Source: Mesorhizobium sp. ZC-5 (GTDB lineage: Bacteria > Pseudomonadota > Alphaproteobacteria > Rhizobiales > Rhizobiaceae). Taken from it: DNA of 64,000 nucleotides. Position numbers and translations under genes: made by a program. Below, in pieces: positions 16,653-40,296 of this stretch (its first letter is position 1; every line of letters begins with the position of its first letter). Under the pieces are notes generated by a model. The model did no database searches. It saw nothing but the letters and a program-made list of their open reading frames with translations, and was not told the origin of the DNA. The DNA lies in the NCBI RefSeq assembly GCF_025753855.1, contig NZ_JAOWPT010000006.1:62001-126000 (forward strand), given 5' to 3'.

Positions 16653-18764
<2,112 letters not shown>

Positions 18765-18840
18765 CGCAGTCCGGCGCGATGTCGTGTCATCGTATGCAGA
18801 TGGCGGCAATAATCCCTCCAACCCGTAAAGGGCACCGTTG

Positions 18841-19476
18841 ATGGCCGCTCAGAACTTGGTGCACGGGGTTCTCGGGGAGACATGCCTGCATCTTTGTGTC
18901 GACATGCAGCGCCTTTTTGCGCCTGGCGGACCGTGGGCCGTGCCATGGGCGCAAAAGGTGTTGCCTGCAATTGAGGAGTTGGTAGCGTTGCATCCGCAGC
19001 GGACACTATTTACGCGCTTCCTTCCCGCCGCTGGGCCAGGCGACGGCCCGGGGATGTGGGCGCATTATTATCGTCGCTGGGCCGAAGTCACTCTTGCCAA
19101 AATGGATATCGGTCTCGTTGAGTTGATGCCTTGCCTGGCGCGTTTCGTGCCGCCGGCTAAAGTTCTCGATAAGCACGTTTATTCGCCGTGGATGGAAGGG
19201 CGACTCGACGCGATGCTGACTGGTTCGGGAATCGACTCGCTGGTTGTCACGGGTGCCGAAACCGACGTGTGCGTCCTCGCTACGGTGCTCGGGGCGATCG
19301 ATCGGGGCTTTCGCGTCGTCCTGGTCACCGACGCAATCTGCAGTTCGGCCGATCAGACCCATGATGCGCTGATGGAACTCTATCGCTCGCGATTCAGCGA
19401 GCAGGTTGAGGCGGTTTCGACCGAAGAGGTCCTGAAAAACTGGCATTCATCAGCGTCGCCAGGGAGGCCAACATGA
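18841..19476 (+). CDS. Isochorismatase-family cysteine hydrolase
   Basis: 211-residue hydrolase of the nicotinamidase/isochorismatase fold. The catalytic triad can be placed: Asp in LCVDMQRLF (about residue 21), Lys in LDKHVYSPW (about 111) and the nucleophile Cys in GAETDVCVLATV (about 145). The ATG at 18841 is chosen over a TTG one codon upstream. It overlaps the downstream DUF6766 gene by four bases (ATGA), so the two are probably co-translated. Substrate unknown; the family covers nicotinamide, isochorismate, ureidoacrylate and others. Confidence 0.85.
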   Translation: MAAQNLVHGVLGETCLHLCVDMQRLFAPGGPWAVPWAQKVLPAIEELVALHPQRTLFTRFLPAAGPGDGPGMWAHYYRRWAEVTLAKMDIGLVELMPCLARFVPPAKVLDKHVYSPWMEGRLDAMLTGSGIDSLVVTGAETDVCVLATVLGAIDRGFRVVLVTDAICSSADQTHDALMELYRSRFSEQVEAVSTEEVLKNWHSSASPGRPT

Positions 19477-20111
19477 AGAGGTTTGTGCGGAACAATGGGC
19501 TGACGATTGTCCTAGTGGCAATGTTTCTGCTAAGTGTCCTTGGCATGATCTGGTCGGGCCACGCGGCCCACAACGACGACTTGCGCGAGCACGGCTCGCC
19601 TGCGTCTGGCTTGCTCGCCTATCTGGCAAGCGGCAGCTTCCTCTCGGCGCTGTTTGAAAACTGGGAAAGCGAATTCCTGCAAATGTCGGCGTACGTGATG
19701 CTAACCGCAATGCTGTTCCAGCGTGGCTCAGCCGAATCTCGTGACCCGGATGATCCGGACCGCCCTGGCGATGAGCTGCCGGCAGCCACTCGAAAGCGCA
19801 ATCCAATTTTGTCATGGTTTTATTCTTATTCGCTGGGGTGCTCGCTGGCCCTGCTGTTCGCCTTTTCATTTGCCTTGCACTGGTGGGCGAGTTGGGCCGC
19901 AGCGAACGAGGACGCACTTCGGCACGGCGGTGAACTACAATCGCCGGGAGATTACCTCCTCGACGCACAGCTGTGGTTCGAGTCCTTCCAGAATTGGCAA
20001 TCAGAGTTCATGTCGACGGCCGTTCTTGTGGTGCTGTCGGTTTTTTTGCGTCACCAAGGCTCGCCGGAATCCAAACCCGTCGGTGCCGCAAATGCCGAAA
20101 CCGGCGCATAA
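19473..20111 (+). CDS. DUF6766-family membrane protein
   Basis: 212-residue membrane protein with four hydrophobic helices in two similar halves: each half has a helix, a loop of the type NWESEFLQMSAYVMLT or NWQSEFMSTAVLVVLS, and a hydrophilic end (FQRGSAES, LRHQGSPES). This internal duplication matches DUF6766, a family of unknown role. The gene overlaps the isochorismatase-like gene by four bases and lies in the katE-yciF stress region, which suggests a stress-linked envelope role, but nothing in the sequence gives an activity. Confidence 0.82.
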   Translation: MKRFVRNNGLTIVLVAMFLLSVLGMIWSGHAAHNDDLREHGSPASGLLAYLASGSFLSALFENWESEFLQMSAYVMLTAMLFQRGSAESRDPDDPDRPGDELPAATRKRNPILSWFYSYSLGCSLALLFAFSFALHWWASWAAANEDALRHGGELQSPGDYLLDAQLWFESFQNWQSEFMSTAVLVVLSVFLRHQGSPESKPVGAANAETGA

Positions 20112-22459: not shown

Positions 22460-22717
22460 TCATCGCGATGCGATCTGCAAGTTGGCATAATTCAAGGTGT
22501 CAGCGCCCGCCCGCTCATCGAGAACCACGGCATACCCCAAGCATACGGCCGCCTTCAATATTTCGTTCGCCATGTCTCCATCAGTCGAGACGAAATCTCC
22601 TGACAAAACTCGGAGCTCCTCCACCGCTTGTGATGTCGATATCACCTTTCTATTGGAGCCGCCGCGAGCACAAATGCGGACCACCTGAAGAACATCAATA
22701 TTCTCGAACGGGCCCAT
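22460..22717 (-). CDS. Conserved-looking small protein, unknown function
   Basis: 85 residues from ATG 22717, chosen for the strong GAGGAGA ribosome-binding site just upstream. The protein is soluble and acidic: MGPFENIDVLQVVRI, VISTSQAVEELRVLSGDF and EILKAAVCLGYAVVLDERAG. The layout loosely recalls short DUF982-type rhizobial proteins, but the match is too weak to assign. It follows the gene at 22770-23088 by 52 bases on the same strand and probably shares its stress promoter. Confidence 0.6.
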   Translation of the reverse strand: MGPFENIDVLQVVRICARGGSNRKVISTSQAVEELRVLSGDFVSTDGDMANEILKAAVCLGYAVVLDERAGADTLNYANLQIASR

Positions 22718-22769
22718 GCCAATCTCCTCAAACGCGGGGTGTTGGAGCTCGGTTTCTTGTCCAGGCTTG

Positions 22770-23088
22770 TCATCGCGCAACTGACCGGTTTTCTGGCCAC
22801 TTTCCCGCCAAGCGCTGCTCAAAAACTCTATTTTGACTGTGGGGGGGCACGGCCAAAGAAGGGTTGGCTACTTTCATTCTCGATCCGACCTGCGCCATCT
22901 CACCATTCGAATAGACGACAACGTCGCCTCGCGGGGGAAATCCAGCGCGTGCTGTTGGTTTCGAATCGAATACTCCGGCGTTGCCGAGAAAGAAGGCGGC
23001 CAGCGTCATGAGTATAGTCAAAGCGAGACCGGCGACGCATCCTCCACCCAGCTGGATATTATCATCTTGGAAGTTGTATCGTCTCATG
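22770..23088 (-). CDS. Small single-helix membrane protein behind a repeated stress leader
   Basis: 105 residues from ATG 23088: a short polar start (MRRYNFQDDNIQLGGG), one membrane helix (about residues 17-38) and a polar periplasmic or cytoplasmic tail. I recognise no family. The open frame continues upstream but that part overlaps the two-hairpin leader element, so the internal ATG is preferred. It is the first gene after the promoter at 23230-23254. The C-terminal third may be chance extension. Confidence 0.5.
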
Positions 23089-23113
23089 CTTTTGCCATTC
23101 CGAAAACAAAGGG

Positions 23114-23176
23114 GCTCGCCGACCGAAGCCGGCGAGCAAATTCCATGCGCGAGAAGGGACGTTACCGCACATGGAA
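23114..23176 (-). repeat. Two-hairpin leader element, copy 1
   Basis: Read on the minus strand: an outer hairpin with arms TTCCATG/CATGGAA (23141-23176), then a strong hairpin GCTCGCCGG/CGGCGAGC with a TTCG-type loop (23114-23137), then a T-rich stretch and the start codon at 23088. The same element occurs at 24467-24523 and 28885-28946, each time just upstream of a minus-strand gene. Probably part of the mRNA leader. Confidence 0.75.
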
Positions 23177-23229
23177 TTCTTCTGAATCTGGTCAGGTCGC
23201 CGACGGCCATAGAGAATTTACATAGAGTA

Positions 23230-23305
23230 AATTCGCGGAGCTAAACCAAGTTCCGGTTCATTCGCTGCATCAGACCAATGCGTGTCATGATGGGACTTTA
23301 GTCCC
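23230..23305 (-). promoter_or_regulatory. RpoE2/EcfG-like promoter with upstream GACCAA/TTGGTC dyad, copy 1
   Basis: On the minus strand GGAAC is at 23254-23250, then 18 bases, then TT (23231-23230). Upstream of it (23273-23303) is a 31-base imperfect dyad with arms GACCAA and TAGTC. Both blocks recur at 24577-24655 and 29114-29195 with the same spacing. Confidence 0.6.
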
Positions 23306-23389
23306 TGGTCGGTGGACTTCAGACAGCAGAGCATGCGATAGGGACCATCATGTTCGGCTGCTTGGGCCTTGCGGGGTTGAGCGTGCGGC

Positions 23390-23640
23390 CGACGAAGGAT
23401 CTCTTGGGTGCTGGGTGCGGTCCGGCTGGTCAGAGCTATGTCTCGCCTTTGCTTGTCCGCGCGCCAGCTGACGGACCTTTCAACACTTCTCAATCGCCCA
23501 TCACCGATCCGCTCCCGGACCTGACGGCCCACGAGCGCCAGGTGCTGGACTCGTCGCCAATGGCGTCGGCAACAAGTGCATCGGACTGGAGCTCGATCTC
23601 CACGAGAAGACGGTGAAAGACCACCTGACGCGCGTCTTCA
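23390..23640 (+). pseudogene. Remnant of a LuxR-type response regulator
   Basis: Pieces in several frames match the regulator at 27772: GQSYVSPLL, DLTAHERQVLD, then GLELDLHEKTVKDHLTRVFT, aligned with GQTYVSPLL, ELTARERQVLE and GLELELHEKTVKHHLSRIFT. The receiver domain is absent and there are at least two frame changes. A dead duplicate of the island's own regulator. Confidence 0.72.
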
Positions 23641-23655
23641 CCAGCTGGGCGCGTT

Positions 23656-24090
23656 GATGCCGCTTTTCGACGTGAGCCATTACCCGAGCAGCCAGCTTCA
23701 TAATCAGGGTGGCCCAGCCACGATGCCCGATCCATGGCGGCGTTCTTCGAAGATTTGGTGAAGGGCTGTCCATAAATCTCCGCTGGCGGTCCCGTTGAAG
23801 CGCATCGTGCTGCTCCAAAGCGAGGAAACGCCCCTAGCGACACCTGCCTATGTTGGCTGGATGTTGGAAAACGAAGAAGCTAAATTCTCAGGCTGTGCGA
23901 GGCCGCAGGCGTAGACGGAACAGAACATTGCCGCCATAGGCTCGCTGCGAACCCGAAAGTTCCCTGGAGAAGCACAGTGTGACTTTGAAGCACGCGAAGG
24001 CGTGATCACTTCTACCGGTCCTTACGCACAGGTGCGATGGTGCTGCGCGTGCATTCCTTGCATTATTCGCGGCGCGAAAGGGCTGAATAG
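23656..24090. other. 435-base stretch without a supported gene
   Basis: Only short frames without family resemblance or good ribosome-binding sites. Probably further decayed sequence between the regulator remnant and the iron-permease-like gene. Confidence 0.4.
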
Positions 24091-24438
24091 TTAGTCCCCG
24101 GGTCTTTCTCTCGCCGCGTTAGCCTCTCTTTCGAGGCGCTTGATGGTCTCCGTAATCTTGTCAGGATCGTCGTGTTCGAGGCCGACCACATCATTTCGGG
24201 TTTGCTCAAGCGCGACGATGATCTCATCCAGCTTGGCATGGATTGCGGCGGTGTCACGGAAACCTTGAATAAGCACGACACCGGTAACCATGATCGCGGC
24301 TACCGACAGGGCGTATGTGACTACATCTGTCCAGCCGAACGGGACCAGCGCCGTGCAGATAGCCATCACGACTAAGACAGTGTAGAAGCCAGGCGGTTTG
24401 GATAAGAACTCCGCGATGCGGAAAAGCACGTTGTCCAT
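24091..24438 (-). CDS. Small membrane protein, low-affinity iron permease family (copy 2)
   Basis: 115 residues, close paralog of the protein at 20747-21100: MDNVLFRIAEFLSKPPGFY, two membrane helices, then RDTAAIHAKLDEIIVALEQTRNDVVGLEHDDPDK and a charged tail. A GGTGGAG ribosome-binding site precedes ATG 24438. Unlike copy 1, whose mRNA should be leaderless, this copy has a ~135-base leader holding the two-hairpin element. Function as iron permease is by family name only. Confidence 0.82.
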   Translation of the reverse strand: MDNVLFRIAEFLSKPPGFYTVLVVMAICTALVPFGWTDVVTYALSVAAIMVTGVVLIQGFRDTAAIHAKLDEIIVALEQTRNDVVGLEHDDPDKITETIKRLEREANAARERPGD

Positions 24439-24466
24439 CGTCTAGCTCCACCGACTAAAGAAAGGA

Positions 24467-24523
24467 CTCGCCGGCCGAAACCGGCGAGCAATACCATGCG
24501 CAGATGGGCAGCACTGCGCATGG
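24467..24523 (-). repeat. Two-hairpin leader element, copy 2
   Basis: Arms CCATGCGCAG/CTGCGCATGG (24494-24523) and CTCGCCGG/CCGGCGAG (24467-24488), both perfect. Ends 29 bases before the start codon of the gene at 24438. A further GCCGGCCTAAGCCGG hairpin lies just upstream in the transcript. Confidence 0.8.
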
Positions 24524-24576
24524 GGTTCTAAGCGCCGGCCTAAGCCGGAGTGCATAGAAGATTTCAGTTCCAAGTG

Positions 24577-24655
24577 AATTCGGAGAGCTTGATGGCGTTC
24601 CGGTCTCTCTCCCCCTTCAGACCAATGCCTCTTGGGATAGGACTTTGGTCCGACG
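24577..24655 (-). promoter_or_regulatory. RpoE2/EcfG-like promoter with GACCAA/TTGGTC dyad, copy 2
   Basis: Minus-strand GGAAC at 24601-24597, 18 bases, TT at 24578-24577. Upstream dyad GACCAA/TTGGTC at 24620-24650, 31 bases end to end, as in the other two copies. Confidence 0.65.
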
Positions 24656-24659
24656 TCAG

Positions 24660-25410
24660 GAGCAGCATTCGACAGGGGAATTGGCTTTCCGATCGCGCGA
24701 AGGATCAATTATTCTCAATCGACACGCGGGGATCTCACTCGCGTCTCGCCTCTTTCAGAGCGCTGCCTTAACATTCGGTCGCAAATCGTGGGGCTGGTGA
24801 AGGAAGTTCAGCCGTGGGAAGCCGAAACCTTAAGGTAGCGACGGGGCGGCGGCGAACTTGCCGCCTCGACCAGTTACAGGCCGGTGACACCTGTCAGCGC
24901 GCTGTCTTTGTCTTCTTGCCGTGGCGGGCCTTACGCCAGCGCTTTGACGGACGATCTCAAGGACGGCAACTCTGGTAACATGGGATGGCGACATCGACGA
25001 ACGGGCGGGTTCTTCGTGGGAGATCTTCACGAGGCCAGAGAGTCTGTCGTAGCCGAGCATCTTGACGGTCCGAGCGTTTGAGAGAGGGCGTCGTTTCCCA
25101 TCCGGCAAAAAACTCGCTGCCGTGGAGTTCATTGCCGGGTCATCTCCCTATGCGCGGCTCACACAGCGGGACGTTTTCGAAGACAAGTCAAACGGTCATT
25201 ATTTTTCTGACAAACCGTCCGGGCTGACTGCATAAAGCGGGCGAGATCTGATAGTGTCTCGATACGACGCCTTAACAGCTGCCGCCATCATGAGTGTTTT
25301 GGCCCGGAGTTGCGTTTGCGGGCTATTTGCGCCGGTTGGCTTGGCTGAAAATTCTACCTGAGACACTCCCCGAATTCCCACCGACACTCAACTCGAAGGT
25401 TGCCCAATGT
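24660..25410. other. 750-base region with no firmly supported gene
   Basis: The longest candidate is a minus-strand frame 24830-25132 (100 codons; TVKMLGYDRLSGLVKISHEEP then low-complexity Arg-rich sequence). It has no clear ribosome-binding site and no family match that I can name. The rest shows no repeats or RNA genes. Confidence 0.35.
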
Positions 25411-25414
25411 CGTG

Positions 25415-25439
25415 GGAACGATTGTCACGAGCACGAGTT
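25415..25439 (+). promoter_or_regulatory. RpoE2/EcfG-like promoter for the DUF1236 gene at 25478
   Basis: GGAAC 25415-25419, 18 bases, TT 25438-25439, about 40 bases before the ATG, with an ATCGGAGGAG ribosome-binding site between. Confidence 0.6.
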
Positions 25440-25477
25440 AGCCTCGCGAAGGGACTTCGATCGGAGGAGATTTTCCG

Positions 25478-26212
25478 ATGAAAGGCATGATCGTAAAAAC
25501 TGCACTTGCTCTTGCTTTGAGCGCCGGGGCATCAGTGGCAATCGCGCAAACTGACCAGCCCCAGATCCTGAAGAAGAAGCCGGGTCAGCAGACAGAGCAA
25601 CAGATGCCGTCTAAGGGCGCAGAAAAGCAGCCGGGCACCGCTGCCGAGGGGCAGGCCGGCACCGAACCGATGAAGAAGCCGGGCGAGCAAACCGAGGGCC
25701 AGGCTCAGGCTCCCGCCGAGCAAAAAACGCCTGCCACCGAGGAGAAGACGGGTTCGGACGCGACGAAGCCTGACCAGCAGAAGGAAGGCCAGGCACAGGT
25801 TCCTGCCGAGGAAGGCACACAGCAGGATGGAACCGCGGCCGACCAGCAGGCCGATCAGCCCAAGACAGAGGGAACGGCTGAGACCGAGCAGAAGCCAGCG
25901 CCGACCGATAATACTGCTGAGACGCCCGCGCAGCCGTCGGATGAAACCACGGCGAGCGTCGATGTCACGGTCGAGCAGAAGACCGAAATTAAGCAGGTCA
26001 TCACCGAAACCAAGGTGGAGCCGGTACGTGACATCGACGTGGATATCTCGGTCGGCGTCGCCGTCCCCAGAACGATCGAGGTTCACCAGCTTCCACCCCG
26101 CATTATCGAAATCGTTCCTGCCTACAGGAATTATGTCTACTTCGTTCTTGCAGACGGGCGGATCGTCATTCTGGAGCCGGACACTTACGAGATCGTTGTT
26201 ATCCTGGTTTAG
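25478..26212 (+). CDS. Secreted Gln/Pro/Thr-rich protein with C-terminal DUF1236 domain
   Basis: 244 residues: a signal peptide (MKGMIVKTALALALSAGASVAIAQ), a long low-complexity linker of repeated Q/E/K/A/P blocks (KKPGQQTEQQ, KKPGEQTEGQ, PDQQKEGQ; residues ~25-160), then a compact domain with PRTIEVHQLPPRIIEIVP and YVYFVLADGRIVILEPDTYEIVVIL. The end matches DUF1236, a small envelope domain frequent in rhizobia and of unknown role. The strong ribosome-binding site and stress promoter make the start secure. A second DUF1236 protein without the linker is at 31834-32160. Confidence 0.85.
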   Translation: MKGMIVKTALALALSAGASVAIAQTDQPQILKKKPGQQTEQQMPSKGAEKQPGTAAEGQAGTEPMKKPGEQTEGQAQAPAEQKTPATEEKTGSDATKPDQQKEGQAQVPAEEGTQQDGTAADQQADQPKTEGTAETEQKPAPTDNTAETPAQPSDETTASVDVTVEQKTEIKQVITETKVEPVRDIDVDISVGVAVPRTIEVHQLPPRIIEIVPAYRNYVYFVLADGRIVILEPDTYEIVVILV

Positions 26213-26374
26213 CCAGTCCGATTGGTGAGGGCGGCGTTTAAGCGCCGCCCCTTTCCTGCGTATTGGATGGGGGACAATCAGGCGTTCAGGCGCAACCCGA
26301 AGCGCTGTCGCCCGTTATTCGGGGGCGACAAACACCCACGCGGCTGCTTGGTGCAGCCTTCCGGCGGAGCGCTG

Positions 26375-27763
26375 ATGACCGCTTTATCCACACTTGCTGC
26401 AAGGGCCGAGTTGCGAAGGAACTGGCCGACATGGTCGCTCGCCGCCCAGTTTCTTGTCGTGGGCGCGGCAACATCCGTTCTCGCAATGTTATTCGTCGGC
26501 CTGGTCGTGTCTCACCTCATCCAATCCGCTATTACCAAGAATGCCGGTGCGACGACCGCCCTTTATGTCGACAGCGTCATCGCGCCCATCCTGCCGGACA
26601 TGCGGACAGCCGACGTTCTCGATGATTCGGTTGAACGTGCCCTCGACGAGACGATGCAGCAGAGTGCGTTGGGAGGCAGCATTCGCTTTTTCCGGCTCTG
26701 GAGCGACGACAATCGAGTTCTTTACACGCACGGCGGGGGACCGACGTCGACGCGCCTGCCGGACGACGACGCGCTCCGTACTGCAGCCGGGGGCAACGTC
26801 GTGACGCGCTATCATGACCGGAACGTCTCCGATGCGCCGCGGCTGGAGGTCTATTATCCGCTGCTGGAGCCATGGACTGGCGAGGTCATCGCTGTGGCCG
26901 AACTGCATGAGACGGCAGCCGACCTTGAGCATGAGCTCGATGAGGCGCGACTGAGAAGCTGGGCCGCTGTCGCGCTCGTCACCACCACCTTCTTTCTCAT
27001 TTTGTGGGCGATCGTGATCCGGGGCAGCCGAACAATCGACGCGCAAAGTGTGGCGCTCCGTGAGCGCGTCGGCGAACTGTCGAATCTGCTATCGCGGAAC
27101 AGCGAACTCAACGCACGGCTACATCGCGCTTCGGAGCGCGCCACGGCCTTCAACGAGCAATATCTGAGACGGCTCGGCGCTGAACTTCACGACGGTCCTG
27201 CCCAACTTATCGCGCTCGCCGCGCTGCGGCTGGACAGCCCCGCCCTGTCGAGCGGAGCCGGCTCGAAGCGGGTTCGTGATCGGGAACTCGGCGCGATGAA
27301 GTCAAACCTCGACGAGGCCCTGCGCGACATACGCAACATCTGCACCGGCCTTGTCCTTCCCCATATCGAGGCGGCCGAACTGCAGGAGATTCTGGAGCGC
27401 GCAGTGCGAGCCCACGAGCAGCGGACTGACGTGCGCGTTGCTTTAGCAACCTCAGGTGCGAGCCCAACGATGGCACCGGCCGCGAAGATCTGTGTGTACA
27501 GGTTCGTACAGGAAGGGCTGAACAACGGCTTCCGGCATGCCAGGGGGGTAGGGCAAGCGGTTCGACAGACCTATGAGGACGGGTGGCTGACAGTCAATGT
27601 CATCGACCGTGGCGACGGCTTCGATCCGAAGGCAGCGGGCTTGCGAAATCTCGGCCTTATCGGATTGCGCGAGCGGATCGAAAGCCTCGGCGGCAAATTT
27701 GACGTCAGTTCCTCGCACAAGGGAACCATCCTGGAAATGACGCTGTTTCTTGAAAGTGATTGA
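26375..27763 (+). CDS. Sensor histidine kinase, NarX/DegS-like (HisKA_3 type)
   Basis: 462 residues from ATG 26375 (GGCGGAG upstream; an in-frame GTG at 26222 is less likely). One membrane helix at about 22-50, a periplasmic sensor of ~145 residues without a recognised fold, a second helix at about 196-217, a coiled linker, then the dimerisation box RRLGAELHDGPAQ with phospho-accepting His 272. The ATPase part has EGLNNGFRHA (N box, about 380), GDGFDP and GLIGLRERIESLGG. Its stop is nine bases before the regulator ATG, so the two form a two-component pair. Confidence 0.9.
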   Translation: MTALSTLAARAELRRNWPTWSLAAQFLVVGAATSVLAMLFVGLVVSHLIQSAITKNAGATTALYVDSVIAPILPDMRTADVLDDSVERALDETMQQSALGGSIRFFRLWSDDNRVLYTHGGGPTSTRLPDDDALRTAAGGNVVTRYHDRNVSDAPRLEVYYPLLEPWTGEVIAVAELHETAADLEHELDEARLRSWAAVALVTTTFFLILWAIVIRGSRTIDAQSVALRERVGELSNLLSRNSELNARLHRASERATAFNEQYLRRLGAELHDGPAQLIALAALRLDSPALSSGAGSKRVRDRELGAMKSNLDEALRDIRNICTGLVLPHIEAAELQEILERAVRAHEQRTDVRVALATSGASPTMAPAAKICVYRFVQEGLNNGFRHARGVGQAVRQTYEDGWLTVNVIDRGDGFDPKAAGLRNLGLIGLRERIESLGGKFDVSSSHKGTILEMTLFLESD

Positions 27764-27771
27764 GAGATCTG

Positions 27772-28425
27772 ATGCAAACTGTCGGCGTAGCCATTATCGA
27801 TGATCATCCGCTGTTTAGAGAAGGCGTGGCGCGCAGCCTGATAGAGTCCGGACGCTTTGCTGTCCTGGGCGAGGGCGGAAGCTGCGACGATGCGTTGCGC
27901 ATTGCGCGGAACAAGCGGCCGGATATTCTGTTGCTCGACCTATCCATGCCAGGAGGCGGACTGCAAGCGATCACCGCGGTACGCCAGATCATCCCCGACC
28001 AGAAGATCGTTGTCCTGACGGTCTCAGAGGTCAGTGATGACGTCGTGCAAGCGCTAAAGGACGGTGTTGAAGGTTACGTGCTCAAGGGGGTCGGCTCGAA
28101 GGCTCTATTGGAAGTGCTGGGCGCTGTGGCGGCTGGCCAGACGTATGTTTCGCCTTTGTTGTCGGCGCGCTTGTTGACGGACCTTTCCACACGTCTCAAT
28201 CAGCCTGACGCGGATCCGCTCGCAGAGCTGACGGCACGGGAGCGCCAAGTGCTGGAGCTAGTTGCCTATGGCCTCAGCAACAAGCGTGTCGGATTGGAAC
28301 TCGAGCTTCACGAAAAGACGGTGAAACACCACCTGTCACGCATTTTCACCAAGCTGAAGGTTAGCAACAGGACGGAGGCGGCGATGATTCTGCGCGATGC
28401 AAAGGATCACGGCAAGCCTCACTAA
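27772..28425 (+). CDS. LuxR/NarL-family response regulator
   Basis: 217 residues: receiver domain with the acidic pair in IIDDHPLF, phospho-acceptor Asp 56 in LLLDLSMPG and Lys in YVLKGVGS, then a LuxR helix-turn-helix (LTARERQVLELVAYGLSNKRVGLELELHEKTVKHHLSRIF). The ATG at 27772 is preferred to a TTG overlapping the kinase stop. Partner of the kinase at 26375. A decayed copy of its C-terminal half lies at 23390-23640. The GACCAA/TTGGTC dyads upstream of three island promoters are candidate targets, which is only a guess. The gene ends in a four-base overlap with the convergent gene 28422-28790. Confidence 0.9.
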   Translation: MQTVGVAIIDDHPLFREGVARSLIESGRFAVLGEGGSCDDALRIARNKRPDILLLDLSMPGGGLQAITAVRQIIPDQKIVVLTVSEVSDDVVQALKDGVEGYVLKGVGSKALLEVLGAVAAGQTYVSPLLSARLLTDLSTRLNQPDADPLAELTARERQVLELVAYGLSNKRVGLELELHEKTVKHHLSRIFTKLKVSNRTEAAMILRDAKDHGKPH

Positions 28426-28790
28426 CGCTGCAGGGATTCGAGCCTTTCGCGATCGGCGCGCGATGCGCGGCGATTAACGATAATGCGCCCTTTGTTGTCC
28501 TTCATAATGTAGCGGCCACGAACGACACTCTCTTCCAAGCCGTTGCTATGCTTTACCACCGCCGCCGTCGTGCCCAAGGGTGCTGCAGGCGATTTCGTAT
28601 TGGCAGTGCCGTTTGACTTGGCGCTACCCTTTCCACCAAGGCCACCGTTTCCGTTGCCATTGTTGCCGCTGTTGTTTCCATTCCCTTTCCCATTGTCTTT
28701 GGCGCTTGCGGACTGGGTCCAGAGAGGTGCCGCCAACGCAGTGACAGCCGTAAGCGACAGAAAAAGCAGGGTTGATCTGCGTGTAAGCAT
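28422..28790 (-). CDS. Small secreted Gly/Asn-rich protein
   Basis: 122 residues: signal peptide (MLTRRSTLLFLSLTAVTALAAPLWTQSASA), a Gly/Asn/Lys low-complexity stretch (residues ~33-63), then a small conserved-looking domain VVRGRYIMKDNKGRIIVNRRASRADRERL. No named family recognised. It has the third copy of the two-hairpin leader upstream (28885-28946) and a stress promoter at 29114-29139. Tail-to-tail overlap of four bases with the response regulator gene. Confidence 0.75.
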   Translation of the reverse strand: MLTRRSTLLFLSLTAVTALAAPLWTQSASAKDNGKGNGNNSGNNGNGNGGLGGKGSAKSNGTANTKSPAAPLGTTAAVVKHSNGLEESVVRGRYIMKDNKGRIIVNRRASRADRERLESLQR

Positions 28791-28884
28791 GTTTCATCTC
28801 CGCATCTTCAGCAACGAATGCGTCCAACGGGCGTTATGCGACAGTCGGGCTGGCCGTGGTGACCCGATGAACCATAATAAGTTT

Positions 28885-28979
28885 GCTCGCCAGCCGAAAC
28901 CGGCGAGCTTACCGTGCGCAGGAAGGGACGTTAGCTACGCATGGTAATATCGGACGCCGGCTGAACACGCCGGCGTCCG
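28885..28979 (-). repeat. Two-hairpin leader element, copy 3, with an extra hairpin
   Basis: GCTCGCC.../GGCGAGC hairpin at 28885-28908 and TACCGTGCG/CGCATGGTA at 28910-28946, followed on the upstream side by an 11-bp perfect hairpin CGGACGCCGGC/GCCGGCGTCCG (28951-28979). Lies about 95 bases before the start codon at 28790. Confidence 0.75.
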
Positions 28980-28998
28980 TGGGATCGTCAACCCAAAG

Positions 28999-29076
28999 CT
29001 ATACCCATCGTGGCGATGCCAAGGCAACCAGCAGCGACCCAAGCAGCCAGCGGGCCTGATAAACGCTCTTGTCCAT
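28999..29076 (-). CDS. 25-residue hydrophobic peptide in the leader of the gene at 28790
   Basis: ATG 29076 is preceded by a strong GGGGAGG ribosome-binding site and lies about 38 bases after the predicted -10. The peptide MDKSVYQARWLLGSLLVALASP... would form a single short membrane helix. Either a genuine small membrane protein or a leader peptide that affects the hairpins downstream. Could also be a truncated remnant of a longer gene. Confidence 0.5.
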   Translation of the reverse strand: MDKSVYQARWLLGSLLVALASPRWV

Positions 29077-29113
29077 GATCGCCTCCCCGCTAATACTATT
29101 TCCATAGCAATGA

Positions 29114-29195
29114 AATTCGATTGGCTGGATACCGGTTCCGGTTTTCCTTCCCCTTCCGACCAATGCCTCTTCAGTTAAGACTTTGGTCCGATGTG
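29114..29195 (-). promoter_or_regulatory. RpoE2/EcfG-like promoter with GACCAA/TTGGTC dyad, copy 3
   Basis: Minus-strand GGAAC at 29139-29135, 19 bases, TT at 29115-29114. Dyad GACCAA/TTGGTC at 29158-29188. Here the dyad also lies upstream of the plus-strand promoter at 29294, so it could serve both directions. Confidence 0.6.
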
Positions 29196-29293
29196 AGGGG
29201 TAAGCGAATGGCAGATTACAGAAATTCCGTCGCCGACCGATCGTCCCGCACCCGCTGCAATGACGGTTATCGCAGTTGCGCTAGTACACTGGC

Positions 29294-29318
29294 GGAACTA
29301 TTACGATCCGCTAATGTT
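29294..29318 (+). promoter_or_regulatory. RpoE2/EcfG-like promoter, start codon 9 bases after the -10
   Basis: GGAAC 29294-29298, 18 bases, TT 29317-29318, ATG at 29327 in the context TGGGCGATGAA, the same as at 20747. Predicts a leaderless or nearly leaderless mRNA. Confidence 0.6.
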
Positions 29319-29326
29319 ATTGGGCG

Positions 29327-29539
29327 ATGAAGAACAACAATATCGTTCCTTTCAAAGTCGCGAGCCAGGCAGAGATCGAACGCGAAATAGCGCTTGCCCT
29401 CGCCAAGTTCGGGGACGACAACATCGAAGTCATGGCAATTGTGTGCAGCTGGGGCGATACGATGGATGACCGACAGGTCCTGGCCGGGCTGCGCAAGCTG
29501 AACCGAACGGGATCGTCGTTCGACGACGTTGCCGACTGA
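29327..29539 (+). CDS. Small soluble protein, unknown function
   Basis: 70 residues, mixed charge, predicted helical start (VASQAEIEREIALALAKFGDDN), a hydrophobic strand (VMAIVCSWGD) and MDDRQVLAGLRKLNRTG. No family recognised, but a decayed homolog exists at 22190-22357, which shows it is a real gene family. The start codon lies nine bases after a stress promoter -10. Confidence 0.68.
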   Translation: MKNNNIVPFKVASQAEIEREIALALAKFGDDNIEVMAIVCSWGDTMDDRQVLAGLRKLNRTGSSFDDVAD

Positions 29540-31833: not shown

Positions 31834-32160
31834 TCACTCATAAACCTTGACGATTTTCCGTGTGCTAGGTTCGACGAGAACCGTCTTGTTGTCGACGACA
31901 ACATACCGGTATTTCACGTCGGGAACGTCTTCGAAAGTATGAAGCTCTACAGTTTCCGGGAGCGTAGAGCCGATGTTCAGTTCCACGCCCGGTACTGAAA
32001 TCGACGCGAGGGGTTTCTTCTTAACGTACTCGCGGATCACCGTGTCCTGCTCCGGTGCGATGACAACGTCTTGGGCGCTCGTCAAGGCTGCGCTGGCGCA
32101 CAACATCACGCCGGCGAGTGAAGGGAATAGAAGAGATTTTTTCATGTTGATAATTTTCAT
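31834..32160 (-). CDS. Secreted DUF1236-domain protein
   Basis: 108 residues from ATG 32160, chosen for the GGGAGA ribosome-binding site; an in-frame ATG at 32193 would lie almost on the promoter -10. Signal peptide MKKSLLFPSLAGVMLCASAALTSAQ, then a DUF1236 domain: VIREYVKKKPLASISVPG, ELNIGSTLPETVELHTFEDVP and YRYVVVDNKTVLVEPSTRKIVKVYE. Second DUF1236 protein of the island (the other, at 25478, has a long linker). Envelope location predicted; role unknown. Confidence 0.85.
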   Translation of the reverse strand: MKIINMKKSLLFPSLAGVMLCASAALTSAQDVVIAPEQDTVIREYVKKKPLASISVPGVELNIGSTLPETVELHTFEDVPDVKYRYVVVDNKTVLVEPSTRKIVKVYE

Positions 32161-32194
32161 CGGAATTTCTCCCGTTAAGTCCCTTCGCGCCATT

Positions 32195-33815: not shown

Positions 33816-35147
33816 TCAGCCGCTGTTATCCTGCAGGCGATCGATATCCACGAGAAAGCGCGCGCGGTGCGCGAGCGCGTTCGCGACCGAGTCGGTAAGT
33901 GCGGGCGGAAAGCCTTTCGGCAGCGCGTTGAGGACTTCGGCGAGACGAGGTTCTGCGCTGACGGCGAGATCTTCGAACAGAGCCTTCATCGCCGGCTTGC
34001 CGATGCCGGCAAGGGCCGCCGTCTGCATGAAGTGCCGCGGCATGATGTTATGAATAGCATAGTGCCGGTTCTTGCCGACAGACATGGCCAGCTTGAATTT
34101 CTTGCGCGATATCTGGTTGGCGTCGAGACTGGGCTGCGCTGTCAGCACATCGTAGAGCGGGGTCAGCCGGTAGCGCCCGCCCGGCGTCAGGAAGATGCTG
34201 AAGTTTTTGGCGTGGCCGTCGGTCGCGGCGATCAGCCAGAAAATAACATTCGCCCGCATGAAGGCCATGATGTCTTCATCTGGCGTGTCGCTGCCCTTGA
34301 GCAACTCGATGATCGCAGGCAGGCCGGGGCCGCCATCCGACTGGTATTTGCGTGTCGGCGGTACAGACAGGGCCTGGCAGCAATCCTCCTGCGGCACGCG
34401 CAGGAGGCGGCCGTCGCGCGCCCATAGCCGGTCAAAGCGCTGCACGACAAGCGTGCGCCTGTCCCCGAAATCCGCAATCTCCGCCTTTGCGGCGGGAACG
34501 CCGAAAGCTTCGAGCAACTTCAGGCAAAGATACTCGTTCTCGACGCTGTTCGAGAGGTCGATGCCGTTCGGCAGTTGGCCTATCTGTGGCTTCAGGATGT
34601 GGGTGGTGGCGGTCGTGCCGACCGGCTTGAACCAACACCCATCCTGCCGTAGCAGCGCGGTCTTCTCCTGCGCGCCGGCAATCGAGATGCGGAAGTCCTC
34701 GTCATCATCGAGACCGAGAGGAGCAGCGGCTAAATTCCTGATCATATCCGCCACCTCGAGGTCGCTGACGGGCTTGCCGTCGATCGCGCCGGGACGGCCG
34801 GGGTCGATTCCATCTGGGAGAAACTGCAGCGCCCCGACGCAGTCATGCCCGAGGACTGAGAGCATGCTGTAGGCATCCGTACCATCCGCTCCCACGCGCT
34901 CGGCGACGCGCTTGCGGATGGAGTCGTCGTCGGGAAGCAGGTTGTCGAAGACGTTGATCACGCGCGCGCCGACATAGCGGTCTTCGCGCAAGGGTAGCGA
35001 CAGCGAAACCGGGAAGGTGCCGTGCCAGTCAAGCCATTCCTTTGCATATTGGAAATCAACGGCGCCCGTGGCTTGTCGGCGCAGCACGCCGACAAGCCGA
35101 CCGTTCTGGAAGATGTTGAGCGGAACATGGGCGGGGCGCCTTGCCAT
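33816..35147 (-). CDS. hipA: HipA-family serine/threonine kinase toxin
   Basis: 443 residues. N-terminal couple domain (PLNIFQNGRLVGVLRR, SLSLPLREDRYVGARVINVFDNLLPD), then the kinase with the autophosphorylation-loop motif RISIAGAQEKTALL (about residues 158-171), FDR-type core (VVQRFDRLWARDGRL), the catalytic loop ATDGHAKNFSIFL and metal-binding LTPLYDV. HipA toxins phosphorylate glutamyl-tRNA synthetase or other targets and cause dormancy. ATG 35147 overlaps the hipB stop (TGATG), so toxin and antitoxin are translated together. Confidence 0.93.
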   Translation of the reverse strand: MARRPAHVPLNIFQNGRLVGVLRRQATGAVDFQYAKEWLDWHGTFPVSLSLPLREDRYVGARVINVFDNLLPDDDSIRKRVAERVGADGTDAYSMLSVLGHDCVGALQFLPDGIDPGRPGAIDGKPVSDLEVADMIRNLAAAPLGLDDDEDFRISIAGAQEKTALLRQDGCWFKPVGTTATTHILKPQIGQLPNGIDLSNSVENEYLCLKLLEAFGVPAAKAEIADFGDRRTLVVQRFDRLWARDGRLLRVPQEDCCQALSVPPTRKYQSDGGPGLPAIIELLKGSDTPDEDIMAFMRANVIFWLIAATDGHAKNFSIFLTPGGRYRLTPLYDVLTAQPSLDANQISRKKFKLAMSVGKNRHYAIHNIMPRHFMQTAALAGIGKPAMKALFEDLAVSAEPRLAEVLNALPKGFPPALTDSVANALAHRARFLVDIDRLQDNSG

Positions 35148-35401
35148 CAAAACAGGTCCTCGATATCAGCGGCGCTGCCCTTGCTGCGCGGGCGCACCAC
35201 AAGTTCGAGGCCAAGGGCCGAGAGCGCGGCCATGAGCGTGCGAAGCTGGACGGCAGGTTCCCCAGCTTCAAGGCGGGACACCGTGCCCTGGCGCAGGTGG
35301 ATGTGGGCGCCTACCGCGCCTTGCGTAAGGCCGGCATGCTTGCGAGCCCGGCGCAGGATGGCGCCGAGTTGTTTTTCGTTGCGGGCGATTTGTTCGGTCA
35401 T
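35147..35401 (-). CDS. hipB: HipB-family antitoxin, XRE helix-turn-helix
   Basis: 84 residues from ATG 35401 (GGTTCTCCC region with GGGAG-like complement upstream). Contains an XRE helix-turn-helix: QLGAILRRARKHAGLTQGAVGAHIHLRQGTVSRLEAGEPAVQLRTLMAALSALGLEL, the normal HipB layout, and a short C-terminal tail. It binds its own promoter and neutralises HipA. The frame is open further upstream but that part overlaps the operator repeats. Confidence 0.9.
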   Translation of the reverse strand: MTEQIARNEKQLGAILRRARKHAGLTQGAVGAHIHLRQGTVSRLEAGEPAVQLRTLMAALSALGLELVVRPRSKGSAADIEDLF

Positions 35402-38571: not shown

Positions 38572-40263
38572 ATGGCACGCGCCGCGATTTATGCTCGTTT
38601 CTCAACAAACCTCCAATCCGATCGCTCCATTGACGATCAGGTGACGCTCTGCCGCGCCTATGCAATCCAGAACGGCTATGACGTTGCGAAAGTCTACATG
38701 GATGCGGCCAAGTCTGGCGCGTCCATGCACAATCGCGACGGCATCCGCGACCTGATGGCTGACGCCATGATGGGCCAGTTCGAGGTCGTGATTGTTGAGG
38801 CTCTGGACCGCTTGTCGCGCGACATGGAAGACCTCGCCGGAATCAGCAAGCGGCTAAAGTTTTTGGATATCGATCTCGTCGGTGTCCATGACGGGAAGGC
38901 GAGCACGGTCACCGTTGGCCTTCGCGGGCTCGTCGGCCAATTGTTTCGGGAGGACAACGCGCACAAGGTTCGGCGCGGCCTAGCCGGGCGCGTGGCACAG
39001 GGACTTTCTGGAGGCGGGCAGGCTTATGGTTACCGGCCCGATCCGCTGAGCAAGGGTAAGATGTTGATCGTTGAAGATGAGGCCGAAGTCATCCGTCGTG
39101 TTTTTCGCGAATACGCCGATGGCCTATCGCCCCGCCAAATCGCTTACGGCCTGAACAAGGACCGTGTCGCACCGCCGCGGGACGGCGAGCGTTGGAACGC
39201 TTCCACGATCATCGGTTCTGCCAAACGCGCCAACGGTATCCTGCATAACAGTCTCTATGTCGGCATACGCACCTGGAATCGGGTCACGATGATAAAGGAC
39301 CCAGACACGGGCAGGCGCGTAAGCAGGCCAAATCCTGAAAGTGAATGGAAGCGAGTACATGTTTCAGAGCTTCGCATTGTTCCGCAAGACCTATGGGAGC
39401 TCGCGCAAGGTGCACGCCGGCAGCGTGTCACGCCAGAAGTCGCTTCAAAAATGCGTAGGCCGAAGCGGCTCCTGTCGGGTCTGTTAAAGTGCGGTGCGTG
39501 CGGCGCGGGAATGTCTACCATGGGAGCCGACAAAACCGGAAGGGTTCGGGTCCGATGCACCGCTGCACATGAGAGTGGGACGTGTCCGGACCCTCGCACC
39601 TTCTATCTCGATACGGTCGAAAAATTAGTAGTTGGAAGCCTCGTAGCCAAACTGCGTTCGCACGAGAATCTGGCGACCTACATCGCCGCTTATCAGGAGG
39701 AGCGGCAACGGCTGATCGGCGACAAAGCGGCGAAGCGCATCAAGTTTGAGCGCGACTTAGAAGTCGCCAAACGGGAAATGTCCCGCATCGTCGATCAGAT
39801 TGCCAAGGGCATTGTGGAAGGTGAGGAAGTGGCCGATGAGATCAAGGCCATCCGGGAGCGCCGGAAGGGCATTGAAGCCGAACTGGCGGTGCAGCCCGAA
39901 GTCGAGAAAGCCGTGACTTTTCTACCAGCCGCAGCGCAACGATTCGAACGCGCGATGCGCGACTTGCACGAAGCATTCAGGGCGGGTGGAGTCGCGGGGA
40001 TCAGCGAAAGCGCTGGTTTCCTTAGGGAAATCGTGTCTACGGCCACGCTCTTCCGCAAGGGAGACGGAACCGGCGTCGAGGTCGAGGTTAGAGGCCACTT
40101 AAAAGGCCTCCTTTCCAGTCAAACTACTGCAAAGACTGGTGAGGGGATTGATGGGCGCCGAGGACCGCTACAAACGGTCCCCGCCACGAACATAGCCCGC
40201 ACAAAGTTGTGGGGATCGATGGTAGCGGGAGAGGGACTTGAACCCCCGACCCCAGGATTATGA
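38572..40263 (+). CDS. Large serine recombinase (site-specific integrase)
   Basis: 563 residues. N-terminal resolvase domain with the nucleophile serine in AIYARFSTNLQSDRS (Ser 11), the DRLSRD motif (about residue 79) and E-helix; then a recombinase domain (GYRPDPLSKGKML ... YADGLSPRQIAYGLN) and a zinc ribbon CGACGAGMS ... RCTAAHESGTCPD, followed by a coiled-coil region (REMSRIVDQIAKG to RRKGIEAEL). Such enzymes integrate and excise mobile elements without host factors. The final codons (VAGEGLEPPTPGL) are read from the complement of the tRNA-Met 3' end, so the element is inserted at or next to that tRNA. Confidence 0.9.
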   Translation: MARAAIYARFSTNLQSDRSIDDQVTLCRAYAIQNGYDVAKVYMDAAKSGASMHNRDGIRDLMADAMMGQFEVVIVEALDRLSRDMEDLAGISKRLKFLDIDLVGVHDGKASTVTVGLRGLVGQLFREDNAHKVRRGLAGRVAQGLSGGGQAYGYRPDPLSKGKMLIVEDEAEVIRRVFREYADGLSPRQIAYGLNKDRVAPPRDGERWNASTIIGSAKRANGILHNSLYVGIRTWNRVTMIKDPDTGRRVSRPNPESEWKRVHVSELRIVPQDLWELAQGARRQRVTPEVASKMRRPKRLLSGLLKCGACGAGMSTMGADKTGRVRVRCTAAHESGTCPDPRTFYLDTVEKLVVGSLVAKLRSHENLATYIAAYQEERQRLIGDKAAKRIKFERDLEVAKREMSRIVDQIAKGIVEGEEVADEIKAIRERRKGIEAELAVQPEVEKAVTFLPAAAQRFERAMRDLHEAFRAGGVAGISESAGFLREIVSTATLFRKGDGTGVEVEVRGHLKGLLSSQTTAKTGEGIDGRRGPLQTVPATNIARTKLWGSMVAGEGLEPPTPGL

Positions 40264-40296
40264 TTCCCGTGCTCTAACCAACTGAGCTACCCCGCC
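40220..40296 (-). tRNA. tRNA-Met (anticodon CAT)
   Basis: 77 bases with a CCA end. 5' GGCGGGG pairs with the acceptor 3' arm, D-arm AGCTCAGTTGGTTAGAGC, anticodon loop ATCATAA with anticodon CAT, T-arm GGGGGTTCAAGTCCC. The elongator-type acceptor stem (G1-C72 paired) argues against initiator tRNA. Overlaps the last 44 bases of the serine recombinase gene on the other strand. Confidence 0.93.

Follow-up and report, generated by a model that had tools for sequence, protein, structure and literature searches.

What does a two-hairpin RNA element do when it stands three times, on one strand and within 6 kb, in front of unrelated genes? The question is raised by a stretch of 64,000 nucleotides (nt) from Mesorhizobium sp. 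ZC-5 (contig NZ_JAOWPT010000006.1, positions 62,001 to 126,000; hereafter the window), in which a first-pass annotation had described a shared mRNA leader before three unrelated stress genes. For this element and its relatives, the computations covered folding and covariation, the constancy of the loop, the grammar of the promoter, gene order and the coding signature of an associated small open reading frame (ORF). It belongs to a real RNA family, apparently undescribed and common to related genera, and with moderate confidence we read its members as stress-induced small RNAs (or 3′-end RNAs of the small ORF), made from an EcfG-like promoter, with a C-rich loop that would pair in trans and a leaky, terminator-like second hairpin.

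The three minus-strand copies, termed c23, c24 and c28, lie where the first-pass annotation had placed them, and each consists of two hairpins:

23143–23174, minus strand: hairpin 1 of c23, loop UAACGUCCCUUC (R1 covariance match 23105–23179, 89.3 bits)
23114–23137, minus strand: hairpin 2 of c23, terminator-like, tail CCCTTTGTTT
24494–24523, minus strand: hairpin 1 of c24, intact stem and diverged loop UGCUGCCCAU
24466–24489, minus strand: hairpin 2 of c24, terminator-like, tail CCTTTCTTTA
28912–28944, minus strand: hairpin 1 of c28, loop CUAACGUCCCUUC
28885–28908, minus strand: hairpin 2 of c28, with T at 4 of the following 10 nt

All three share an architecture in which a ten-pair hairpin (with one mismatch in c28) carrying a loop of 10–13 bases is followed by a ten-pair, GC-rich hairpin closed by UUCG and then by a T-richer stretch; the T-rich stretch first described for all copies is clear in c23 and c24 and weaker in c28. 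The distance to the next gene, previously given as 25–95 bases, measures 26 nt (c23), 27 nt (c24, counted from 24466; 28 nt from the earlier boundary 24467) and 94 nt (c28) from hairpin 2 to ATG. The folding energies of c23, c24 and c28 (−40.7, −40.5 and −34.2 kcal/mol; z −4.8, −4.4 and −3.7) were equalled by none of 200 shuffles of each. A hairpin-2 pattern derived from the copies has three matches in the window against 0.00 expected, and the plain hairpin-2 palindrome with up to three mismatches also has three, against 0.27. Searched with BLAST and covariance models, the 6.34-Mb genome yielded these three as the only real copies, all in one 6-kb locus, together with two matches at 22.9 bits; of these, one is c24 on its reverse strand and the other (C6:181646) falls in apparently coding sequence. 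By eye, a third GC-rich hairpin (GGACGCCGGCG...GCCGGCGTCC, 28952–28978, minus strand) stands between the broken small ORF of c28 and its hairpin 1, and a GCCGGC...GCCGGC stem also occurs in the second copy, B, of M. albiziae (L040, 16263–16280).

The covariance-model search that had been proposed as a check, once run, recovered copies in related genera with compensatory stem changes, mostly behind a box-GGAAC promoter. Three models, built successively, were run over 251, 395 and 397 genomes (overlapping sets), and matches were kept if they had a GTCCC-like loop and two hairpins, c24 being kept for its place. The first model gave 37 matches, of which 9 were kept and 28 dropped, the latter comprising 11 loci judged to be ordinary terminators or chance, the c24 reverse strand, the coding-like C6:181646 and 15 others that were not inspected. 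The second gave 29 matches and 22 kept (dropping L049, L050, L075, L077, L078, L082 and L084), and the third 13 and 11 (dropping L093 and the ambiguous L092). Among six plasmid loci, L096 and L098 were kept, L100 lacks the element, and L097, L101 and L099 (the last with its loop lost) show that degenerate copies exist.

In total, the covariance-model, plasmid and small-ORF searches yielded 31 copies in 24 genomes or records, four of them found through the small ORF and some contributed by two named plasmid records (Mesorhizobium japonicum pMLb and Nitratireductor thuwali p1536_1). The genomes concerned (G000, G002, G030, G035, G073, G092, G098, G111, G126, G152, G154, G165, G184, G219, G241, G245, G276, G283, G295, G322, G326 and G691) represent 11 genus-level groups in one family, and most searched genomes have no copy. 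Mesorhizobium (Neomesorhizobium) albiziae DSM 21822 (G002), of the same genus as the window, has two, which precede its orthologues of the c23 gene and the c28 gene, respectively; a remoter c23-gene orthologue, in G093 (68% identity), shows by eye neither promoter nor RNA. A pattern scan for the leader in GTDB gave five loci, of which only that of M. albiziae (L039) is real, L035–L038 having no hairpins by eye. A BLAST search of plasmids with the c23 and c24 leaders gave no match, and one with three other members gave no useful example, a single 32-nt match falling on a plasmid of the arsenite-oxidising bacterium NT-25.

The first four copies by themselves gave no covariation signal (one double-change pair, with 234 of 500 shuffles as good). 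From a sequence-only MAFFT alignment of all 31, RNAalifold recovered the same two hairpins, with 17 of 19 pairs changed on both sides in at least one sequence. Across this alignment 91.9% of cells are paired and 97 are double changes, a result reached by none of 500 shuffles, and slid-partner controls pair only 28.7–45.7%. G-U cells far outnumber A-C cells (49 vs. 9, counted from the pairing tables), which indicates that this strand pairs, as RNA, even if part of the asymmetry may stem from the search, given that covariance models favour G-U. These counts bear on a reading in which the stems are DNA-level palindromes (operators) or a mobile-element repeat rather than RNA, as the inverted repeats that form both stems and the three copies within 6 kb might suggest. 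We regard it as very improbable in view of the G-U excess, the lack of a real copy elsewhere in the genome (the weak C6:181646 match being coding-like) and the position of the element behind a box-GGAAC promoter, on the same strand, in 27 of 31 copies. Of the earlier description, "mobile or duplicated," duplication before unrelated genes is supported, and there is no sign of mobility, the copies being confined to one locus and travelling with their promoter. A mobile repeat was disfavoured on the same grounds, transposases and target sites not having been searched for.

The most constant part of the family is the core of the hairpin-1 loop, which averages 1.81 bits per position (the stem arms, 1.05 and 1.11), a constancy inflated by the keeping criterion, of which promoter grammar, gene order and the four peptide-found copies are independent. 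The nine-letter loop GUCCCUUCC is exact in 25 of 31 copies, and GUCCC is present in 30. Hairpin 2 varies in sequence and keeps its shape; the 10 nt that follow it hold a mean of 4.26 T, compared to 1.88 in flanking sequence (31 copies). Four dropped loci (L050 1501–1579, L078 124–204, L049 1501–1573 and L092 1501–1581; 34.8–47.1 bits with model R3) are C-rich-loop hairpins right before terminators, at the apparent 3′ ends of other genes, and may represent an independent, more general RNA theme of 3′ untranslated regions.

The promoter first noticed upstream of all three copies contains a second shared block, GGACYAAAGTC-N12-GCATTGGTC, followed after 18 nt by GGAAC:

23273–23304, minus strand: response-regulator-type box of c23, GGACTAAAGTC-N12-GCATTGGTC
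23250–23254, minus strand: GGAAC of c23, an EcfG-like −35 element (presumed sigma factor), 18 nt past the box
24620–24651, minus strand: response-regulator-type box of c24
24597–24601, minus strand: GGAAC of c24, 18 nt past the box
29158–29189, minus strand: response-regulator-type box of c28
29135–29139, minus strand: GGAAC of c28, 18 nt past the box

Allowing three mismatches, this pattern occurs in the genome at these three sites, exactly, and at one three-mismatch site. Across the family, a NarL/LuxR-type box with GGAAC at set spacing precedes 27 of the 31 copies, compared to 1 of 3100 shuffles. The spacing is 18–19 nt in 23 copies and 8–9 nt in four (L106, L111, L112 and L130), about one helical turn less, which suggests a face-of-helix contact between regulator and polymerase. 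The four copies outside the pattern are G092 (a box-like sequence, no GGAAC), G691c, G152 and G030. By eye, several relatives have N16-nGTT after GGAAC and the window copies nnTT at that place; GGAAC-N16-nGTT is what we take to be the EcfG promoter type. The frequency of box and GGAAC thus points to a putative EcfG-type promoter, as for GsrN-like RNAs. With up to two mismatches the promoter is found in 20 of 395 family genomes. Of 11 such loci inspected, one belongs to M. albiziae; judged by eye, Gly/Ser/Asn-rich, secreted-looking proteins follow at six, DUF1236-like proteins at two and neither kind at the remaining two; the ten outside the genus show no hairpins by eye, and two other loci (G295) have them. 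Because promoter sites without hairpins occur in other genera, the promoter is wider in distribution than the RNA.

Between promoter and RNA, many relatives carry an ORF of 28–30 amino acids (aa), M(D/E)(K/N)SVYQARWLL..., which by eye is intact in 18 of 31 copies, broken in five (c28, L096, L091, L095 and L051) and absent in eight (c23, c24, M. albiziae copy A, L069, L074, L086, L044 and L045). In the window its trace is:

28999–29076, minus strand: frameshifted remnant of the 30-aa ORF family, MDKSVYQARWLLG... (G000:C6:91026–91076, E 1.2e-8)

The ORF looks coding, synonymous exceeding non-synonymous difference in 91 of 92 pairs. Three peptides tested have no Pfam match (E ≤ 1), one tested has no NCBIfam match (E ≤ 0.1), and the ORF is absent from the (incomplete) PLSDB gene tables of four annotated plasmid records. 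A profile of it matched 37 of 318 family genomes at E ≤ 0.01; among 18 new loci inspected, four have the RNA, two of these at only 29–31 bits, and six EARWIL/EARWLI variants do not. These six (L136, L137, L138, L142, L145 and L147) form a second class of 30-aa ORF behind GGAAC, with no box by eye and no R3 match; a further small gene, membrane-protein-like, apparently comes next in L137, L145 and L147. A leader peptide within hairpin 1 was considered as well and rejected, as the frame that opens at the ATG of c28 closes after three codons and copy A of M. albiziae lacks an ATG.

Where the small ORF is broken or absent the RNA is kept, and hence the RNA is under selection in its own right. This weighs against the element as a processing or stability site, bound by RNase E or an RNA-binding protein at the loop and setting the stoichiometry of small ORF and next gene. 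In 18 of 31 copies the element comes behind an intact small ORF, which would fit such a site, as would the constancy of the loop, and the small protein CcaF1 acts with RNase E in CcsR maturation, according to the part of the published account consulted (PMC10253847). Since a terminator-like tail would also be superfluous there, we consider a processing role quite unlikely.

The genes that follow the RNA in the window, and the two-component system that adjoins them, are:

22770–23087, minus strand: gene behind c23, a 105-aa protein with no Pfam or NCBIfam match
24091–24438, minus strand: gene behind c24, low-affinity iron permease-like (PF04120)
28422–28790, minus strand: gene behind c28 (product P0002), Gly/Asn-rich, no Pfam match, secreted-looking by eye
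26222–27763, plus strand: sensor histidine kinase (HisKA_3, HATPase_c), a neighbour conserved in relatives
27763–28425, plus strand: NarL/LuxR-type response regulator, a candidate binder of the boxes

The three downstream genes are unrelated; the label of stress genes is not borne out for their products, two having no Pfam match and one being iron permease-like. A P0002 homologue is the most frequent downstream gene found in relatives: it follows the RNA in 12 of 28 places (26 of these sites being kept copies, and two being close to the end of a contig) and converges there with homologues of the window's two-component pair, regulator and kinase; in seven of the 12 the small ORF is intact. In M. 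japonicum, box and GGAAC are followed in turn by a broken small ORF, the RNA, a 36-aa ORF and a gene for a low-affinity iron permease, the type of gene that also stands behind c24.

This arrangement could also be that of a cis-acting leader or intercistronic attenuator, with hairpin 2 as a conditional terminator and the hairpin-1 loop as a sensor or the site of a read-through factor. The gaps to ATG are short, hairpin 2 is terminator-like, the P0002 homologue with its adjoining regulator pair recurs in those 12 of 28 places, and the element has been copied to other genes together with its promoter. Moreover, a further promoter does not fit into gaps of 26 and 27 nt, so that any expression of the c23 and c24 genes from this promoter requires RNA polymerase to read through hairpin 2. 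The loop, however, paired with the start region downstream no better than shuffled loops did in the 28 of 31 copies for which start codons were chosen by hand (mean −7.9 vs. −8.2 kcal/mol; mean z 0.10), only one, G326, falling below −2 (z −2.3). Nor was a conserved anti-terminator seen in 80 nt upstream plus hairpin 1 of the 31 copies, compared to mononucleotide shuffles (mean z −0.30; two below −2). With neither pairing seen, cis action is not the favoured mechanism; the distances to GGAAC and to ATG also vary. The absence of loop-start pairing argues for recognition of the loop in trans or by a protein, and these likewise better explain a loop that stays nearly unchanged whatever gene follows. 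A cis-acting leader is therefore unlikely in our estimation, albeit a serious rival. The original term, "mRNA leader," suits the derived copies of the window better than the family, which mostly follows a 28–30-aa ORF and often precedes one gene family.

We thus return to the stress-induced small RNA. In the scheme that we infer for the acting sigma factor and regulator, transcript ends, termination, trans pairing and targets, transcription would start at the EcfG-type promoter, probably activated by the adjacent two-component system through the box, which lies 18–19 nt, or a helical turn less, ahead of the −35 element. Hairpin 2 would be the end point of many transcripts, so that a short RNA is made under stress, and leaky termination would allow co-expression of the downstream gene. 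The exposed loop GUCCCUUCC would most likely act in trans, by pairing with target mRNAs at ribosome-binding regions that are purine-rich and GGAAGGGAC-like. In relatives the RNA often carries the 30-aa ORF for a membrane-like peptide, and may be a dual-function RNA. Several observations pull the other way. In c24 the loop sequence is lost and the stems are perfect; the constancy of the loop elsewhere stems partly from selection, most copies having been sought by model and kept for it. The T tail is uneven, with at least five T in 10 nt in 11 of 31 copies and at most three in another 11. Every window copy directly precedes a gene on its own strand, which fits a cis role too. Finally, a count of target sites of the form GGAAGGGA-N3-10-ATG gave no target signal, with 30 vs. 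7 for the reversed motif in the own genome and 33 vs. 6 in the element-free G040. More tentatively still, and with some doubt, the elements may constitute a dual-function stress RNA family of Hyphomicrobiales, uniting under one promoter a membrane-like 30-aa peptide and a trans-acting RNA with a C-rich loop, with a NarL-type regulator helically phased to the −35 element of a general-stress, extracytoplasmic function (ECF) sigma factor, and with RNA and promoter copied, peptide-free, to new genes.

With its C-rich loop, stress-type promoter and putative terminator, the element resembles GsrN and CcsR/cuckoo-type RNAs. The loop of cuckoo/CcsR RNAs is CCUCCUCCC, and staphylococcal Rsa-type RNAs, in an unrelated organism and with a different architecture, bind Shine-Dalgarno regions through a C-rich UCCC loop. 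CcsR or cuckoo RNAs (DUF1127, CIN1 locus) and SmelA075/SmelA099 are alphaproteobacterial, as is the element. By contrast, CCUCCUCCC occurs in none of the 31 elements, whose loop is GUCCCUUCC, of GUCCC type in 30, and the element has one loop hairpin, unlike the several of these RNAs. In place of DUF1127, its small ORF encodes a membrane-like peptide of 30 aa that has no Pfam match, and its promoter appears EcfG-like, with a response-regulator box. In the parts of the literature consulted, CcsR RNAs are co-transcribed with a small protein, from an RpoHI/RpoHII promoter through a small ORF and the RNAs to a Rho-independent terminator (PMC10253847), and SmelA075/SmelA099 of S. meliloti are hairpins with variable stems and anti-Shine-Dalgarno-like, C-rich CCUCCUCCC loops (PMC3927594). 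GsrN, in a partial view of its description, is EcfG-dependent and pairs with katG mRNA through a C-rich loop, so that GsrN and GsrN-like RNAs share with the element an EcfG promoter, an exposed C-rich loop and a stress context (PMC5869019). GsrN-like RNAs typically lie near phyR/nepR/ecfG (C. crescentus excepted), whereas the element's locus has a NarL-type regulator pair; unlike GsrN, the element often has a small ORF attached and a gene following. Intrinsic attenuators and 5′ leader terminators share a terminator-like hairpin right before a gene and differ in that no alternative anti-terminator was found here.

The first-pass statement that no described RNA family fits is borne out where scanned, with no Rfam 15 match at the element in scans covering 5 of the 24 genomes or records. 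At gathering thresholds the whole window gave tRNA only; at E ≤ 5, positions 22700–29400 gave only a weak sR53 match elsewhere, and loci L044, L045, L047 and L051 gave none at the element. About 190 nt downstream of the L047 element, on the same strand (1172–1314, minus), lies a match to BASRCI27, a small RNA of Brucella, that stays below threshold (44 bits against a gathering score of 59.8, E 5.7e-7). No published description was found, either in topic searches of titles and abstract starts or in full-text searches with two strings of the peptide and with the loop spelt as RNA, which gave six unrelated papers, all of them for the loop; most subscription papers were outside this scope, and the examined parts of a Mesorhizobium huakuii small-RNA paper do not show the element (PMC5596092).

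The window copies look derived, c23 and c24 being without the small ORF and c28 having it broken. A C-terminal fragment of a response-regulator gene (23423–23643, plus strand), 81–86% like 28130–28351 and in the orientation of the intact gene, adjoins c23 and c24, and suggests that both arose by local duplication of a regulator-to-promoter block. A second iron permease-like gene (PF04120; 20714–21100, plus strand) has GGAAC-N16-TGTT just before the ORF start and, by eye, no box or hairpins. The surroundings at 16653–20111 and 31834–32193 are stress-like (a long catalase, an isochorismatase domain protein, DUF6766 and DUF1236). Further along are a HipA-like gene (33816–35150, minus strand) and a large serine recombinase ORF (38572–40263, plus strand) whose end overlaps a tRNA match (40223–40296), a possible boundary of an integrated element.

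This family adds to the biology of root-nodule and soil bacteria an apparently undescribed, strongly covarying RNA, a conserved 30-aa protein family without a Pfam model and a promoter grammar that would link the general stress sigma factor with two-component signalling. The RNA and peptide halves are separable, as some copies are RNA without peptide and others the reverse, and the nearly constant nine-base loop would offer a direct handle on targets.

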